Assembly: GCA_005883575.1 (NCBI GenBank)
Contig: VBFH01000022.1
Span: 1-64,000 of the forward strand
Direction: 5' to 3'
Source: Chloroflexota bacterium
Lineage (GTDB): Bacteria; Chloroflexota; Dormibacteria; Dormibacterales; Dormibacteraceae
Length of the DNA: 64,000 bases
A program made the position numbers and the translations under genes. The notes beneath the pieces were generated by a model. The model had not been told where the DNA came from and did not search any database. It was given only the letters and a program-made list of their open reading frames with translations. Positions 39,559-60,497 of this stretch are shown one piece after another; the stretch's first letter is position 1, and each line of letters opens with the position of its first letter.

Positions 39559-39969
39559 GTGAAGATTCGGCAGGACGCCCTCGAGAAGATCCGTTCCCAC
39601 GGGGCTGAGGGTTTCCCGCACGAGATCTGCGGGCTGTTGATCGGAAGGCCGTCGGAGAACCTAATCACCGAAGTCCGGCCGGTCCGCAACGTCGAAATGC
39701 AAAACCCTGAGGTGCGGTACCTCATCGACGACAAAGAGGACATGCGCATCCGCAAAGAGCTATACAAGTCGGACCTCGACGTGCTCGGCTACTACCACAG
39801 CCACCCGAACCATCCCGCGCAGCCGTCGATCTTCGACACCGAGCGCTCGTGGGAGAGCTACGTGTACGTGATCGTCTCCGTGCAGGACGGCCGGCCGGCG
39901 GACGTGAATGCGTTCATCGCCCAGAACGACCGCGGTCCGATGGTCCTCGAGCCCCTCGAGGTCGCCTGA
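39559..39969 (+). CDS. JAMM/Mov34 metalloprotease, Mec-like
   Basis: 136 residues. The JAMM motif is complete: a Glu in the N-terminal HEICGLLIG, then YYHSHPNHPAQPSIFD (HxH...S..D) for zinc. In mycobacteria the homologue Mec releases cysteine from the carrier CysO after CysM action, and this gene directly follows cysM; that role is inferred. GTG 39559 gives the usual N-terminus (MKIRQDALEKI); an ATG at 39508 would read through the palindromic element. Confidence 0.88.
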   Translation: MKIRQDALEKIRSHGAEGFPHEICGLLIGRPSENLITEVRPVRNVEMQNPEVRYLIDDKEDMRIRKELYKSDLDVLGYYHSHPNHPAQPSIFDTERSWESYVYVIVSVQDGRPADVNAFIAQNDRGPMVLEPLEVA

Positions 39970-51960: not shown

Positions 51961-52740
51961 GTGAGCTACTTCGAACAATTGCGTGCGCTCTCGCGCGAAC
52001 GCCAGACCATGCTCTGCGTCGGCCTTGACCCCGACCCGGACCGAATCGAAGGCGGGGCAGCCGGTGCGCTGCGCCACTGCCGCCAGGTGGTACGCCAGAC
52101 CGAACAGCATGTGTGTTGCTTCAAGCCGAACAGCGCGTTCTGGGAGCAGTACGGACCGGACGGATGGAAAGCCCTGCTCGAGCTCCGGGACGAGGCGCCC
52201 AGGACTCCGTTCCTGCTCGACGCCAAGCGCGGTGACATGGACAACACGATGCGGGCGTATGCGCGGGCGGTGTTCAGGACTCTGGGCATGGATGCGGCGA
52301 CGGTCAATCCTTACCTCGGCACAGATTCGCTCGAGCAGTTCACGGCCTTCGAGGATCGCGGCGTTTATGTCCTCTGCCGAACCTCAAATCCGGGTGCGGC
52401 CGAGCTGCAGCACCTCGAGTCCGACGGCAGGCCGATCTATCGGCACGTCGTCGAGCTGGCCGAGCGCCTGAACGCGCATGGGAACGTCGGTCTTGTCATC
52501 GGCGCGACCGCGCCGGCGCAGATCGCTGAGGTCCGCGCCGTGACCGACCTGCCGTTTCTTCTGCCCGGAGTCGGAGCACAAGGGGGTGATGTCGAGGCGA
52601 CCGCCCGCGCGGCATGGAATGGCGACCCCGCGTCATGCCTCGTCTCGGCAAGCCGCAGCGTCCTCTTCGCGCAGGATCCGGCCCGCGAGGCGGCCGCGCT
52701 CAAGACTCAGATCAACGCCGCGGCGGGGGTGCGAACGTGA
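51961..52740 (+). CDS. pyrF: orotidine 5'-phosphate decarboxylase (type 2)
   Basis: 259 residues. Final step of UMP synthesis. CVGLDPDPDRI near the N-terminus, catalytic FLLDAKRGDMDNT, NPYLGTDSLE and LLPGVGAQGGD are type 2 motifs. The stop overlaps the next start (GTGA), coupling it to an amino-acid-type enzyme gene. Confidence 0.94.
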   Translation: MSYFEQLRALSRERQTMLCVGLDPDPDRIEGGAAGALRHCRQVVRQTEQHVCCFKPNSAFWEQYGPDGWKALLELRDEAPRTPFLLDAKRGDMDNTMRAYARAVFRTLGMDAATVNPYLGTDSLEQFTAFEDRGVYVLCRTSNPGAAELQHLESDGRPIYRHVVELAERLNAHGNVGLVIGATAPAQIAEVRAVTDLPFLLPGVGAQGGDVEATARAAWNGDPASCLVSASRSVLFAQDPAREAAALKTQINAAAGVRT

Positions 52741-53975
52741 AGGACGGCAGACATACCGCGCGCCTTGTTCTTAAGGGCCACATCATCGATTCGATGATGC
52801 TGCCGCAGCTCATGGACCTGGTCATGGACCTCGGCGGCAACTTCACGATCGAGGAGTTGAAGGTCGGCCAGCACAAGACCGACACGTCGATCTGCCGGAT
52901 GGAGGTGTACGCCGATACCCCCGAGGAGCTCGATCGAATCGTGCAGCGCGCCCGCGCCCTGGGCGCGACCGCCGAGCACGAGCAGCCGGTGCGCGTCGAC
53001 AAGGTGGCGCGCGAGGGCGTCTTTCCCGAAGGCTTCTACTCGACGAGCAACCTGCCCACCGAGGTGCTGGTCGACGGCCGCTGGGTCGCGGTCGAGAACA
53101 TCGAGATGGACGCCGCGATCGCGGTCGACCGCAAGCTGAAGCGGGCGCGCTGCATCGTCTTCCAGGACGCAAAGCCGGGGATGGAGGTCGTGATCGGCCA
53201 CCACGGGGTCCGCGTGACGCCGCTGGAGCGATCACGCCAGACCGAGATCTTCAGCTTCATGGGCAGCGAGGTCTCCGCCGAGAAGCCGAAGAAGGTGCTC
53301 ATCGCCGGCATCGCCGAGGAGATGCGCCAGGCGCGCGCTGCGGGGGGCAAGGTCCTTGTCGTCGCCGGTCCCGCGGTAGTGCACACCGGCGCTGGCGTAT
53401 ACCTGTCGCGGCTGATCGAGCTGGGATACGTCCAGGTCCTCTTCGCGGGCAACGCGCTGGCGGTGCACGATGTCGAGTCGGTGCTTTTCGGCACCGCTCT
53501 CGGCATCAACATCGAGAGCGGCGTCCCCATCGAGCATGGCCATGAGCACCACATGCGGGCGATCAATCGCGTGCGCGCTGCAGGTGGGCTGCGGCAGATG
53601 GTTCGGAGCGGCGAGCTGAAGGCCGGCGTCATGAAGTCCGCGATCGATCACGGGGTCGAGATCGTGCTCGCGGGCTCCGTCCGCGATGACGGCCCGCTGC
53701 CCGACGTGATCACGGACATGATCGAGGCGCAGCGGCGGATGCGCGCCGCCCTGAGTGGTGTGCGCATCGCGCTGATGCTGTCGACCATGCTCCACTCGAT
53801 CGCGACCGGCAACATGCTGCCCGCCGGGGTGCGCACGGTCTGCGTCGACATCAACCCGGCCGTGGTGACCAAGCTGGCCGACCGCGGCAGCTGGCAGTCC
53901 GTCGGCCTGGTCACCGACGTCGAGTCATTCTTGCGCGAACTGGCCCTTGTCGTGGAAACTGGTCGCCATGGCTAA
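52737..53975 (+). CDS. TIGR00300/LOR-SDH family protein (possible ornithine cyclodeaminase type)
   Basis: 412 residues. The N-terminal part (1-110) has a ferredoxin-like LOR/SDH region (LVLKGHIIDSMMLPQLMDLV, GNFTIEELKVGQHKTD). The remainder matches the TIGR00300 group, with GPAVVHTGAGVYLSRLIELGY and NALAVHDVESVLFGT. Relatives include the archaeal-type ornithine cyclodeaminase and the C-terminal half of cyanobacterial AgrE, which makes proline from ornithine; the arginine dihydrolase half is not present here. The reaction is inferred. Confidence 0.75.
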   Translation: MKDGRHTARLVLKGHIIDSMMLPQLMDLVMDLGGNFTIEELKVGQHKTDTSICRMEVYADTPEELDRIVQRARALGATAEHEQPVRVDKVAREGVFPEGFYSTSNLPTEVLVDGRWVAVENIEMDAAIAVDRKLKRARCIVFQDAKPGMEVVIGHHGVRVTPLERSRQTEIFSFMGSEVSAEKPKKVLIAGIAEEMRQARAAGGKVLVVAGPAVVHTGAGVYLSRLIELGYVQVLFAGNALAVHDVESVLFGTALGINIESGVPIEHGHEHHMRAINRVRAAGGLRQMVRSGELKAGVMKSAIDHGVEIVLAGSVRDDGPLPDVITDMIEAQRRMRAALSGVRIALMLSTMLHSIATGNMLPAGVRTVCVDINPAVVTKLADRGSWQSVGLVTDVESFLRELALVVETGRHG

Positions 53976-54117
53976 AGGACGCGACAAGCAAGGACGCGAG
54001 GCCAAAAAGAAGAAGAAGCCGAAGCAGCCGGCCGCGGCGGTGCCGACGAACGTTCAGTTCCGGCATCACTCCGTGGTGACGGGTCAGCCCGAACCGCCGC
54101 CCCGCCCGACCGAATAA
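53968..54117 (+). CDS. 49-residue Lys/Pro-rich small protein
   Basis: ATG 53968 overlaps the preceding gene by 8 nt. The first 20 residues are strongly basic (MAKGRDKQGREAKKKKK), then Pro/Ala-rich, ending PPPRPTE. It may bind nucleic acid. Its position and coding pattern support a gene, but there is no family match. Confidence 0.45.
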   Translation: MAKGRDKQGREAKKKKKPKQPAAAVPTNVQFRHHSVVTGQPEPPPRPTE

Positions 54118-54125
54118 TCGACCGC

Positions 54126-54497
54126 CTGACCCCCCGGCACGTCGTTTTTCCGGTCATCGGCTTTCTCGGCGGGCTGCTCGGAGGGCTGCTGGGTGTCGGT
54201 GGCGGTTTCATCCTGGTTCCGCTGCAGGTGCTGTGGACGGACACGCCCCAGCGCAACGCCAACGCCAACTCTCTGGTCGCGATCATCCCCATCGCGGTCG
54301 CCGCGCTTCCCATCTACTACTTTCGCAAGGGTTCGCCGCAGATCGACTCTCACGTGGCGCTCTTCCTCGTCATCGGAAGCGTCGCGGGCGCGTACATCGG
54401 CGCTCGGGTGCTGAGCCGGATCCCCGATCGCCAGCTCAAGTTCGCCGTCGCGATCGTCCTCGGCGTGGTCGGGCTCAAGGAGCTGCTGTTGCCTTGA
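54126..54497 (+). CDS. TSUP (TauE/SafE) half transporter, first gene
   Basis: 123 residues with four hydrophobic segments. GLLGGLLGVGGGFILVPLQVL and ANSLVAIIPIAVAALPIYY are the TSUP repeat motifs. Full TSUP proteins have about 250 residues and two such repeats. CTG 54126 is the only possible start (also CTGA) upstream of the conserved glycine-rich segment; no ATG, GTG or TTG occurs there. It overlaps the second half gene as TTGA. Confidence 0.8.
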   Translation: MTPRHVVFPVIGFLGGLLGGLLGVGGGFILVPLQVLWTDTPQRNANANSLVAIIPIAVAALPIYYFRKGSPQIDSHVALFLVIGSVAGAYIGARVLSRIPDRQLKFAVAIVLGVVGLKELLLP

Positions 54498-54880
54498 GCT
54501 GGGCGGACGCGGCGGCCGTGGTGGGCGGCTTCGGCGCCGGTTTTCTGAGCGGCACGATCGGCATCGGCGGTGGGCTGCTCTTCGTGCCGACCATGACGGT
54601 CGGCCTCCGGCTGTCCCAGGCCGTGGCCCAGGGCACCTCGCTGGTCGCCATCATCCCGACGGCGATCGTCGGCGCCTTCACCCACTTCCGGCGAGGCAAC
54701 GTCCTGAGCCGGCCCGCGCTGATGATGGGCGGTGGGGGCGTGGTCGGGGCGGTGATCGGCGCCCTGGTGGCGGTCGAGGTGCCCGGGCCCTTGCTGGCAA
54801 GGATCTGGGGTGGGTTCCTCGTCTTCAGCGCCTACCGCCTGACGATGCAAGCCCTCAAGGCTTCGGAAAAAACGCCCTAA
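54494..54880 (+). CDS. TSUP (TauE/SafE) half transporter, second gene
   Basis: 128 residues, again four hydrophobic segments, with GFLSGTIGIGGGLLFVPTM and QGTSLVAIIPTAIVGAF. It is the second repeat unit of the transporter and ends 98 nt before the acyl-CoA dehydrogenase gene. Together with the previous gene it would equal one full TSUP sulfite/organosulfonate/anion transporter; the substrate is not known. Confidence 0.8.
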   Translation: MSWADAAAVVGGFGAGFLSGTIGIGGGLLFVPTMTVGLRLSQAVAQGTSLVAIIPTAIVGAFTHFRRGNVLSRPALMMGGGGVVGAVIGALVAVEVPGPLLARIWGGFLVFSAYRLTMQALKASEKTP

Positions 54881-56178: not shown

Positions 56179-56775
56179 GTGGCGGTCCCTGCGGCTCAGC
56201 TTCGGCGCGACGCACGGATCGAACGGCGCCGCAAGCGGATCGCCGAGGCCGCACTCGCGTTGTTTGCGGGTCGAGGATACACCGTGACCTCGGTCGACGA
56301 TATCGTCACCCGGGCGCGCGTTTCCAAGTCCGCGTTCTACGAGTTCTTCGAGTCCAAGGAGCACTGCTTTCGGGAGCTGCTGGACCAGGAGGGCGGCTCG
56401 TTGATTCACGACGTCCTCGCGGACGCGGCCACCGGCCACGACCACCACGAGAGGCTGCGGCGCGGCATCACGCGGTTCGTGCGTTCGTGTTTCGAGCGGT
56501 CGGACGTGGCTCGGCTGCTGATCGTGGAGTCGGTCGGGTTGAGCCAGGGGGTGGAGGGGGTCCGCCATGAGCTGCAGGCGCGATTTGCCGACGCGGTGGC
56601 GGAGGAGGTCCGGCATGCGATGACGCACGACGCCTTCTATGCCGACAAGGATCCGGCGGTTTTCGGGCGGGCGGTGGTCGGGGCGGTGAGCGACGCGGTG
56701 GGCTACTTCCTGACGCATCCGGGGGTCGACGCCGATTCGCTGGCGGCAAGCCTATGCGTGATCTTCGCGCCTTAG
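56179..56775 (+). CDS. TetR/AcrR-family transcriptional regulator
   Basis: 198 residues. N-terminal helix-turn-helix (about 20-65: RIAEAALALFAGRGYTVTSVDDIVTRARVSKSAFYEFF, shown here only by its position and end); ligand-binding helical domain after that. It is co-transcribed with the acyl-CoA dehydrogenase, so an acyl-CoA or fatty-acid ligand is plausible (inference). GTG 56179. Its stop overlaps the convergent mntP stop by 4 nt. Confidence 0.9.
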   Translation: MAVPAAQLRRDARIERRRKRIAEAALALFAGRGYTVTSVDDIVTRARVSKSAFYEFFESKEHCFRELLDQEGGSLIHDVLADAATGHDHHERLRRGITRFVRSCFERSDVARLLIVESVGLSQGVEGVRHELQARFADAVAEEVRHAMTHDAFYADKDPAVFGRAVVGAVSDAVGYFLTHPGVDADSLAASLCVIFAP

Positions 56776-57341
56776 ACGTTCAGCAGCCTCAACGCCAGAA
56801 GGACGAGCGCGACCATGATCAGCGCACCTCCGGCCGCCTGTTCCGATCGTTCGCGCACCGCTTCGCTGAGCCGGGCGCCGAGCCGTAGGCCGGCCTGCGC
56901 GGCGACGGAGGCTTGCAGGGCGATCCACATCACCGTCAGCGCAATCGAGAGTCCGAGCAGGCCGGCGCTGACGCCGATCGTGAGCTCGTCGACACTGATG
57001 CTCAGACCGAGGTCGAGGACGGCCAGGCCACGCGCATGCGCGAGCAACCTAAGGCGCCGCTCGTCTTCGTCATCGCTCATGCCCGAGCGAAGGAGCAAGA
57101 GGCCGGCAAAGACGAGAAACAGAATTCCGCCATAGCCGGCCCACGCCCCGACGAAGCTGCCCACGACACGGCCGATGACCAGGCCGAGGATCGGCATCCC
57201 CGCCTCGAAGGCGGTGAAGACCAGGGTGATCCGGAGCCGGTCGCGTTGCTCCAAGCCGGCCACCCCGAGCGCCGCGGCGAGGGCGAAGGTATCGAGGGCG
57301 AGGGGGAGGAGGAGACCAGCCGTGACCAGCAACTGGCGCAC
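56772..57341 (-). CDS. mntP: putative manganese efflux pump MntP
   Basis: 189 residues, six membrane helices in two related halves. Conserved acidic residues in PLALDTFALAAALG and GLSISVDELTIGVSAG match MntP. It exports Mn2+ from the cell. GTG 57341 is the annotated start. It is transcribed away from the SOS-type promoter at 57.37 kb, 32 bp from the LexA box, so it may also be affected by LexA. Confidence 0.88.
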   Translation of the reverse strand: MRQLLVTAGLLLPLALDTFALAAALGVAGLEQRDRLRITLVFTAFEAGMPILGLVIGRVVGSFVGAWAGYGGILFLVFAGLLLLRSGMSDDEDERRLRLLAHARGLAVLDLGLSISVDELTIGVSAGLLGLSIALTVMWIALQASVAAQAGLRLGARLSEAVRERSEQAAGGALIMVALVLLALRLLNV

Positions 57342-59218: not shown

Positions 59219-60497
59219 CCGTAAAAGTCTCGAACCGACGGGCGGCATGACGGGGGGCCCAACCCCATGCCCGCGTGCCGCCCTCGACGTATTCGGTTCG
59301 CTCCACCCCACCTACTTTGCGTAGCTCGGCCAGGACGCCTTCCCGACCGTAGGGGACAAGGATCTCCACCGGCACGGAGTCGCCGCGGCTGGCTTGGTCG
59401 ATCGCGGCCAAGAGCTCGCCCAGCCCAGTGCGGCTGGTGGCGGAGATGGCAACCGCCCCCGGATAGCGCTGGGTGAGCGCGGCGATCGCCCGGCGCCGCG
59501 ACGCCGGACCGAGCTGGTCGATCTTGTTCAGGGCCACGACTCTTGGTTTCCGGGCGGCACCGAGCTCGGCCAGGACACGCTCCACGGTTCCGGCCTGATC
59601 CTCGACCCAAGGTGAGCTGACATCCAGGACCTGGATCACCAGGTCGGCCTCGGTGACCTCCTCGAGAGTGGCTCGGAAGGCGGCGACCAGGTCGGTCGGC
59701 AGCTTCTGGATGAAGCCGACCGTGTCGGTGAGCAGCAGCTCCCGGCCGGCCGGTAGCTCGAGTTTGCGCGTGGTCGGGTCCAGGGTGGCAAAGAGCCGCT
59801 GTTCGGCTCGCACATCCGCTCCGGTCAGGACGTTAAGCAGCGTCGACTTGCCCGCGTTGGTGTAGCCGACGATCGCCGCCGTGTCCAGCTCCGCGCGGCG
59901 GCGTCCCGTGCGCTGCTGGTGCCGCTGCGTCCGCACCTGCTCGATCTCGCGGTCGAGGTCGCGAAGGCGCTTGCGAATGCGACGCCGCTCGACCTCGATC
60001 TGCTGCTCGCCGAAGCCGCCGCGGGCGCCCACTCCCCCGCGCCGCCCGCCTACCTGGCGGTCATAGGCGTAGGCCCCGATCAGTCGCGGCAGAAGGTGAT
60101 GCAGCCGGGCCGCCTCGACTTGCAGCCGGCCCTCGTGGGTACGTGCGTGCTGAGCGAAGATCTCGAGGATGATCTCCGTCCGGTCGAGCACGCGCGCCTT
60201 CAGCTCCAGCTCGAGGTTGCGCTGCTGGCGGGGACTCAGGTCCTCGTTGCAGATGACCAGGTCGAAAGATCCTTCGACCTTCATGTCGCGCAGCGACGCG
60301 ACCTTGCCCATGCCGATGAAGTGCGCTGGATCGACCTCGGATCGCCGCTGGACGTCAGAGCCGACGACCTCGGTGCCGGCCGTTCTGGCCAGGTCGGCCA
60401 GCTCGGTCATCTGGTCACCGACCGACTCTGGAGTCGAACCCGGGAGCAGGATGCCGACGAGATAGGCCCGCTCCCGCGGGCTCCCGGTCGTGATCAG
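59202..60497 (-). CDS. hflX: ribosome-associated GTPase HflX
   Basis: 431 residues. Splits stalled 70S ribosomes. N-terminal domain begins RAYLVGILLPGS and has IGMGKVASL, then coiled-coil REIEQVRTQR, then the GTPase core with GYTNAGKSTLLN, DTVGFIQKLP and NKID. CTG 60497 overlaps the preceding TGA (CTGA). The conserved segment before the first ATG (60410) shows that translation must begin upstream, and no ATG/GTG/TTG is available there. Confidence 0.93.
   Translation of the reverse strand: MITTGSPRERAYLVGILLPGSTPESVGDQMTELADLARTAGTEVVGSDVQRRSEVDPAHFIGMGKVASLRDMKVEGSFDLVICNEDLSPRQQRNLELELKARVLDRTEIILEIFAQHARTHEGRLQVEAARLHHLLPRLIGAYAYDRQVGGRRGGVGARGGFGEQQIEVERRRIRKRLRDLDREIEQVRTQRHQQRTGRRRAELDTAAIVGYTNAGKSTLLNVLTGADVRAEQRLFATLDPTTRKLELPAGRELLLTDTVGFIQKLPTDLVAAFRATLEEVTEADLVIQVLDVSSPWVEDQAGTVERVLAELGAARKPRVVALNKIDQLGPASRRRAIAALTQRYPGAVAISATSRTGLGELLAAIDQASRGDSVPVEILVPYGREGVLAELRKVGGVERTEYVEGGTRAWGWAPRHAARRFETFTANGKA

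Follow-up and report, generated by a model that had tools for sequence, protein, structure and literature searches.

How does a membrane transporter family that usually joins two homologous repeats in a single polypeptide come to be encoded as two overlapping half-size genes, and how would two such halves be made and put together? This question arose from the DNA analysed here (64,000 nucleotides, hereafter the window), which belongs to a soil lineage of Chloroflexota and in which two adjacent open reading frames, A and B, each carry one repeat of the TSUP (TauE/SafE) family. The original prediction, made from the sequence, left open whether the pair represents a heterodimeric state preceding repeat fusion or a later split. 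We found no description of a split TSUP protein in the openly accessible literature.

A conserved pair of overlapping half-genes

Each gene matched PF01925 (TauE) over one of the two repeats, with Pfam scores of 98.7 bits for A and 81.3 bits for B, both above the curated cut-off of 32.6 bits, and no further match to this family was found in the whole 3.6 Mb genome. The repeat and GxGGG motif attributed to each gene from sequence were thereby recovered (GVGGG in A, GIGGG in B), and the two genes jointly provide the two repeats and two motifs of a TSUP protein. A and B share 41% identity over 59 residues around the motif, and are homologous genes for half-size membrane proteins lying side by side. 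No sequence match was obtained for either of them among solved structures, nor among plasmids. The proposed TTGA overlap is present at 54494-54497, the stop codon of A being TGA 54495-54497 and B extending from TTG 54494 to TAA 54880 (Table 1). Of the predicted lengths, 128 residues is correct for B, while 123 residues for A implies a start at 54126, which is a CTG and not an ATG, GTG or TTG.

Table 1. Features of the split TSUP locus in the window
Feature	Position	Strand	Basis
Ornithine cyclodeaminase, nickel-pincer-nucleotide (NPN) dependent, first operon gene	52614..53975	+	TIGR00300, PF21570, PF04455, PF21571
Small lysine-rich ORF, 49 aa (MAKGRDKQGREAKKKKK...FRHHSVV...TE)	53968..54117	+	Overlaps end of cyclodeaminase gene
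ATAA: ATA in A frame over TAA stop of lysine-rich ORF, proposed A start	54114..54117	+	Sequence; offset in relatives
Half A, first TSUP repeat, GVGGG motif	54114..54497	+	Pfam TauE E 5.5e-28, 24-row alignment, AlphaFold2 helices; start codon uncertain
TTGA overlap: A stop TGA and B start TTG	54494..54497	+	Junction four-mers in 24 loci
Half B, second TSUP repeat, GIGGG motif	54494..54880	+	Pfam TauE E 1.1e-22, 22-row alignment

Among 60 relatives searched, neighbouring half matches recurred throughout the genus and family, while other members had single-ORF forms. The same pair is present in all 24 split loci collected (that of the window plus 23 of other genomes), always as separate ORFs and never as the single chain that is usual for TSUP proteins, although the Pfam model does not require it. 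A ends within GTGA (14 loci), ATGA (7) or TTGA (3), B occupies the overlapping -1 frame relative to A in all loci except L038, and a canonical start is available to B in 24 of 24. Both halves are under purifying selection, with within-genus pN/pS values of 0.21 for A and 0.30 for B, so that neither half alone is the conserved one. Each also has its own invariant residues, such as YYF in A (24-row alignment) and AQGTSL in B (22-row alignment), and the linker of about 15 or more residues that separates the repeats of fused relatives is absent from the split pairs.

The one-base frame difference between the halves is what a frameshift or assembly error within an ordinary single gene would leave at the junction, a concern raised in the original prediction. 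This reading is refuted by conservation and retains a practically nil probability: the same type of junction, with a stop and an adjoining start every time, recurs in 24 loci from separate assemblies, no single frame is restored in any of them, and A and B are not separated by the linker expected from the fused relatives. The arrangement common to 24 loci, together with purifying selection and half-specific invariants, excludes chance as well as sequencing or assembly error.

Predicted fold, orientation and origin of the halves

The fused relative L075 (462-1289) yielded a confident predicted model (mean pLDDT 89.1, pTM 0.86) in which each of two repeats is made of five helices, with a short one in second position. 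Half A modelled alone (AlphaFold2) displayed the same five-helix pattern at lower confidence, with helices at 8-26, 30-42, 46-73, 79-100 and 105-125 and a mean pLDDT of only 69.8. Compared with solved structures, the L075 model was much closer to the undecaprenyl-pyrophosphate phosphatase BacA/UppP (Z 14.3, rmsd 3.9, 239 residues, 13% identity) than to any other, the next row having Z 5.7; Foldseek also ranked BacA first, with an E value of only 1.8e-3. The repeats of BacA each consist of a re-entrant helix pair followed by three transmembrane helices and are inserted into the membrane in opposite orientations (PMC5852022). Two repeats of this composition are found in the L075 model, an assignment that applies to this fused relative and not to the window proteins as a complex. 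The model comparison suggests that the TSUP transporter family and the BacA/UppP phosphatase share an inverted-repeat fold.

The distribution of positive charges supports opposite orientations of A and B, as a heterodimer would show; topology prediction by charge bias was a check named in the original prediction. Mean K+R counts reached 1.96 at the N-terminus and 3.88 in loop 4-5 of A, against 0.23 at the N-terminus and 3.41 at the C-terminus of B. The bias is clear at these four places; loop 3-4 does not discriminate, being nearly equal in the two halves (1.79 and 1.86).

We infer that the inverted repeats of a single TSUP transporter have been split into two chains, A and B, which pair as an antiparallel heterodimer, and we consider this reading as a whole probable. 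A single-chain ancestor would have been cut at the loop between its repeats, releasing two halves that would each fold as a re-entrant helix pair, with GxGGG at its tip, followed by three transmembrane helices. The cytoplasmic end would be the N-terminus in A and the C-terminus in B, allowing antiparallel pairing, and the two GxGGG loops, one per half, would meet mid-membrane at a shared site, by analogy with BacA, to form the putative transport unit. On the predicted topology the A/B junction would be extracellular, and a break at this position would be harmless to insertion. A ribosome ending A would restart on the overlapping start of B, keeping the halves in step, and A itself would most likely be started likewise, on a non-canonical codon, by a ribosome that has just completed the upstream gene. 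Coupling of B to A by termination-reinitiation is suggested by analogy with overlapping gene pairs translated in this way in tested cases (PMC6728339), and by the enrichment of subunits of heteromeric complexes among gene pairs spaced -8 to +10 nt, 4.5-fold in Escherichia coli and 8.1-fold in H. volcanii relative to distant pairs (PMC10666635).

Other Chloroflexota families harbour two lone TSUP half-genes (L198, L199) and a further half-gene pair (L200), and these bear on two other explanations. Since the lone half-genes indicate that a repeat need not have a partner gene, A and B might remain unpaired, each forming its own dual-topology homodimer. A charge bias that is fixed and opposite in the two halves, invariant residues specific to each, strict A-B linkage with overlap and the preservation of the A-B order in fused relatives all make this very unlikely. 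The lone half-genes and the additional pair would also be expected if single-repeat forms were old, the A/B pair then being a relic of a state predating repeat fusion. In the tree of A plus B sequences, rooted with fused Actinomycetota proteins, every outgroup sequence used is fused, including those of the sister family f3 of the same class; fused sequences lie at the base and the split rows fall within this tree. Constraining the 24 split rows to one clade was not rejected (p-AU 0.298). The relic reading is therefore unlikely, and between the two origins originally envisaged the later split of a single-chain ancestor is favoured, the fit being better with outgroups that are all fused and with a single split clade that the data do not reject. 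The best tree inserts a fused clade of the same family between split rows, a weakly supported placement. One later split explains the tree most simply, and two splits or one re-fusion are also compatible with it.

The nearest fused relatives have their repeats in the same order as A-B. In the split pairs and in some fused relatives, the Pfam alignment puts A against the C-terminal part of the TauE model and B against its N-terminal part, and a circular permutation was considered on this basis. It was dropped after scoring the halves of full-length relatives: the order proved inconsistent, and in the closest fused proteins of Actinomycetota the best match to A was the N-terminal half. The inverted placement by Pfam thus gives no support to permutation. 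In addition, one genome from another family of the class (G046) contains both a split copy (L063) and a fused copy (L064). The split copy groups with L071 among the split rows of the window's family, which suggests horizontal transfer.

Operon context and the start of half A

The operon begins with a cyclodeaminase gene whose product scored 498.8 bits against TIGR00300 (cut-off 410.8), and the C-terminal motif of this enzyme was recognised upstream of A in 21 of the 24 split loci. The small lysine-rich ORF occurs in 20 of 24, with a conserved FRHHSVV motif, and gave no significant match in Pfam or NCBIfam. The order cyclodeaminase, lysine-rich ORF, A, B is conserved. The genome also has a gene for LarC. 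Sulfite reversibly inhibits LarA, an NPN enzyme from L. plantarum, and shields the cofactor of this enzyme (PMC11851776); sulfur-based molecules are the predicted cargo of TSUP proteins (PMC5840216). From the NPN-enzyme context, the sulfite effect on LarA and these TSUP substrates, sulfite or a related anion may be guessed as the substrate of A/B, a speculative proposal that we regard as rather more likely wrong than right. A gene for an MntP-type manganese efflux pump (PF02659, window 56775-57341, minus strand) follows the TSUP pair two genes downstream, on the opposite strand.

The conserved absence of a canonical start codon for A, which the original prediction did not mention, is more surprising than the split itself. 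In the window, the first ATG, GTG or TTG met in the A frame after the previous stop is GTG 54228, already beyond the GxGGG motif. Likewise, no such codon precedes the first helix of A in 22 of 24 loci, the exceptions being a GTG in L038 and an ATG in L057, and no canonical start was found near the first helix of five fused relatives (L046, L049, L059, L072, L074). In the window A could start at ATA 54114, which shares bases with the upstream TAA stop, at ATC 54117 or at CTG 54126. A does not simply begin further upstream, because the coding frame there is the one used by the lysine-rich ORF (pN/pS 0.27, purifying selection) and not that of A (pN/pS 1.53).

Of the 24 loci, 22 were scored with a -1 offset to the nearest upstream stop (NTAA, NTAG or NTGA); about 20 of these are clear, since for L052 and L058 the stop used was not the one ending the lysine-rich ORF. 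The codon of A lying over the stop is mostly ATA or GTA, with TAA or TAG, and is CTG in L048 and GTG in L038. L047, L054 and L056, which lack the lysine-rich ORF and have A directly behind the cyclodeaminase gene, keep the same geometry. This overlap in about 20 loci, with or without the lysine-rich ORF, makes ATA 54114 the favoured start of A; ATC 54117 or CTG 54126 are possible in the window. An NTA codon was rejected as the sole start rule, given L041 (a stop in A's own frame followed by a later ATC), L052 and L058 (other geometry), L038 (GTG) and L057 (ATG).

Alternatively, A could be produced without a start of its own, as a fusion to the lysine-rich ORF through ribosomal frameshifting or readthrough, to which the -1 frame of A relative to this ORF in most loci and the A-rich lysine tract ahead of A would lend themselves. 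No single recoding step suits all loci, however: L041 has A in an unchanged frame beyond a stop, L052 and L058 show a different offset, three loci lack the lysine-rich ORF, the A frame of several loci contains a stop ahead of or behind the lysine tract, and the upstream A frame is not coding. Frameshift fusion was discarded as a general mechanism on account of this varied geometry and the ORF-less loci, and we judge any such fusion highly improbable. We tentatively propose instead, as a plausible account that is somewhat short of probable, that A is started by the just-terminated ribosome at whatever codon overlaps the stop (ATA or GTA in NTAA or NTAG, where NTGA would have NTG), this Chloroflexota lineage being more widely tolerant of non-canonical starts in stop-overlapping genes.

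A codon-usage screen of a small sample (four genomes of the genus, about 675 kb in all) examined start codons in other genes. It returned 23 CTGA-joined tandem pairs at first sight, nine of which read CTGATG, with ATG as the likelier start. In six CTGA pairs the downstream coding frame has no canonical start nearby, three of the six being orthologues of one transporter-like gene, for which a CTG overlaps the upstream TGA in the window (39966-39968, plus strand) and likewise in G004 and G007. In the window genome and three genus relatives, the start region of hflX (window 60495-60497, minus strand) is devoid of ATG, GTG and TTG, and a CTG within CTGATC (window CTG 60497) occupies the same place in all four. 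One gene of G007 has ATAG with no canonical start nearby. The CTG of miaA (window 62553) was set aside as a weak case, a conserved in-frame GTG lying 12 codons upstream, and a raw-BLAST start screen of the window was rejected, many of its flagged cases being false and due to shadow ORFs. A few other genes of the genus thus seem, from sequence, to use CTG or ATA starts.

Implications and comparison with known systems

The conserved split provides natural single repeats of a TSUP/BacA-like architecture, so that the stability and pairing of isolated re-entrant repeats become directly testable with A and B. These are half-genes that look like the product of a later split and not like a fusion intermediate. 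A is also a conserved, selected gene without ATG, GTG or TTG in 22 of 24 loci, which standard gene callers miss or truncate, and its start makes the codon requirement of termination-reinitiation testable.

With canonical TSUP/TauE-SafE proteins (PF01925), the pair shares its sequence family, two repeats with a GxGGG motif apiece and the repeat order of the nearest fused relatives. It differs by carrying these repeats on two chains of about 125 residues each, whereas a survey of more than 300 TSUP proteins of sulfate reducers reported lengths of 240 to 790 residues (PMC5840216). BacA/UppP resembles the pair in the predicted two inverted repeats, each with a re-entrant pair and three transmembrane helices, but is a single-chain enzyme with 13% identity in the structural alignment, and no common function is claimed.

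Three families with paired half-genes are compared here for their mode of action, with no homology implied. SMR pairs (YdgE/YdgF) and DUF606 proteins are, like A and B, small homologous membrane proteins with opposite charge bias and antiparallel pairing, but belong to other folds and families. DUF606 occurs as homodimer, heterodimer and fusion forms (PMC3962082), for which the proposed order is duplication, divergence and then fusion, whereas a later split is favoured for A/B. The UPF0016 family (TMEM165/Gdt1) is known as singletons, as pairs of neighbouring half-genes and as two-domain fusions, with opposite orientations in the membrane, its pairs having a cytosolic N-terminal extension on the first member and a cytosolic C-terminal one on the second (PMC4067407). 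It thus parallels A/B in combining half-gene pairs, fused forms and opposite orientation, although it is an unrelated family with another motif; its pairs have been reported from Cyanobacteria only and were read as a step towards fusion, while the A/B pair appears to have taken the opposite path, from one chain to two.
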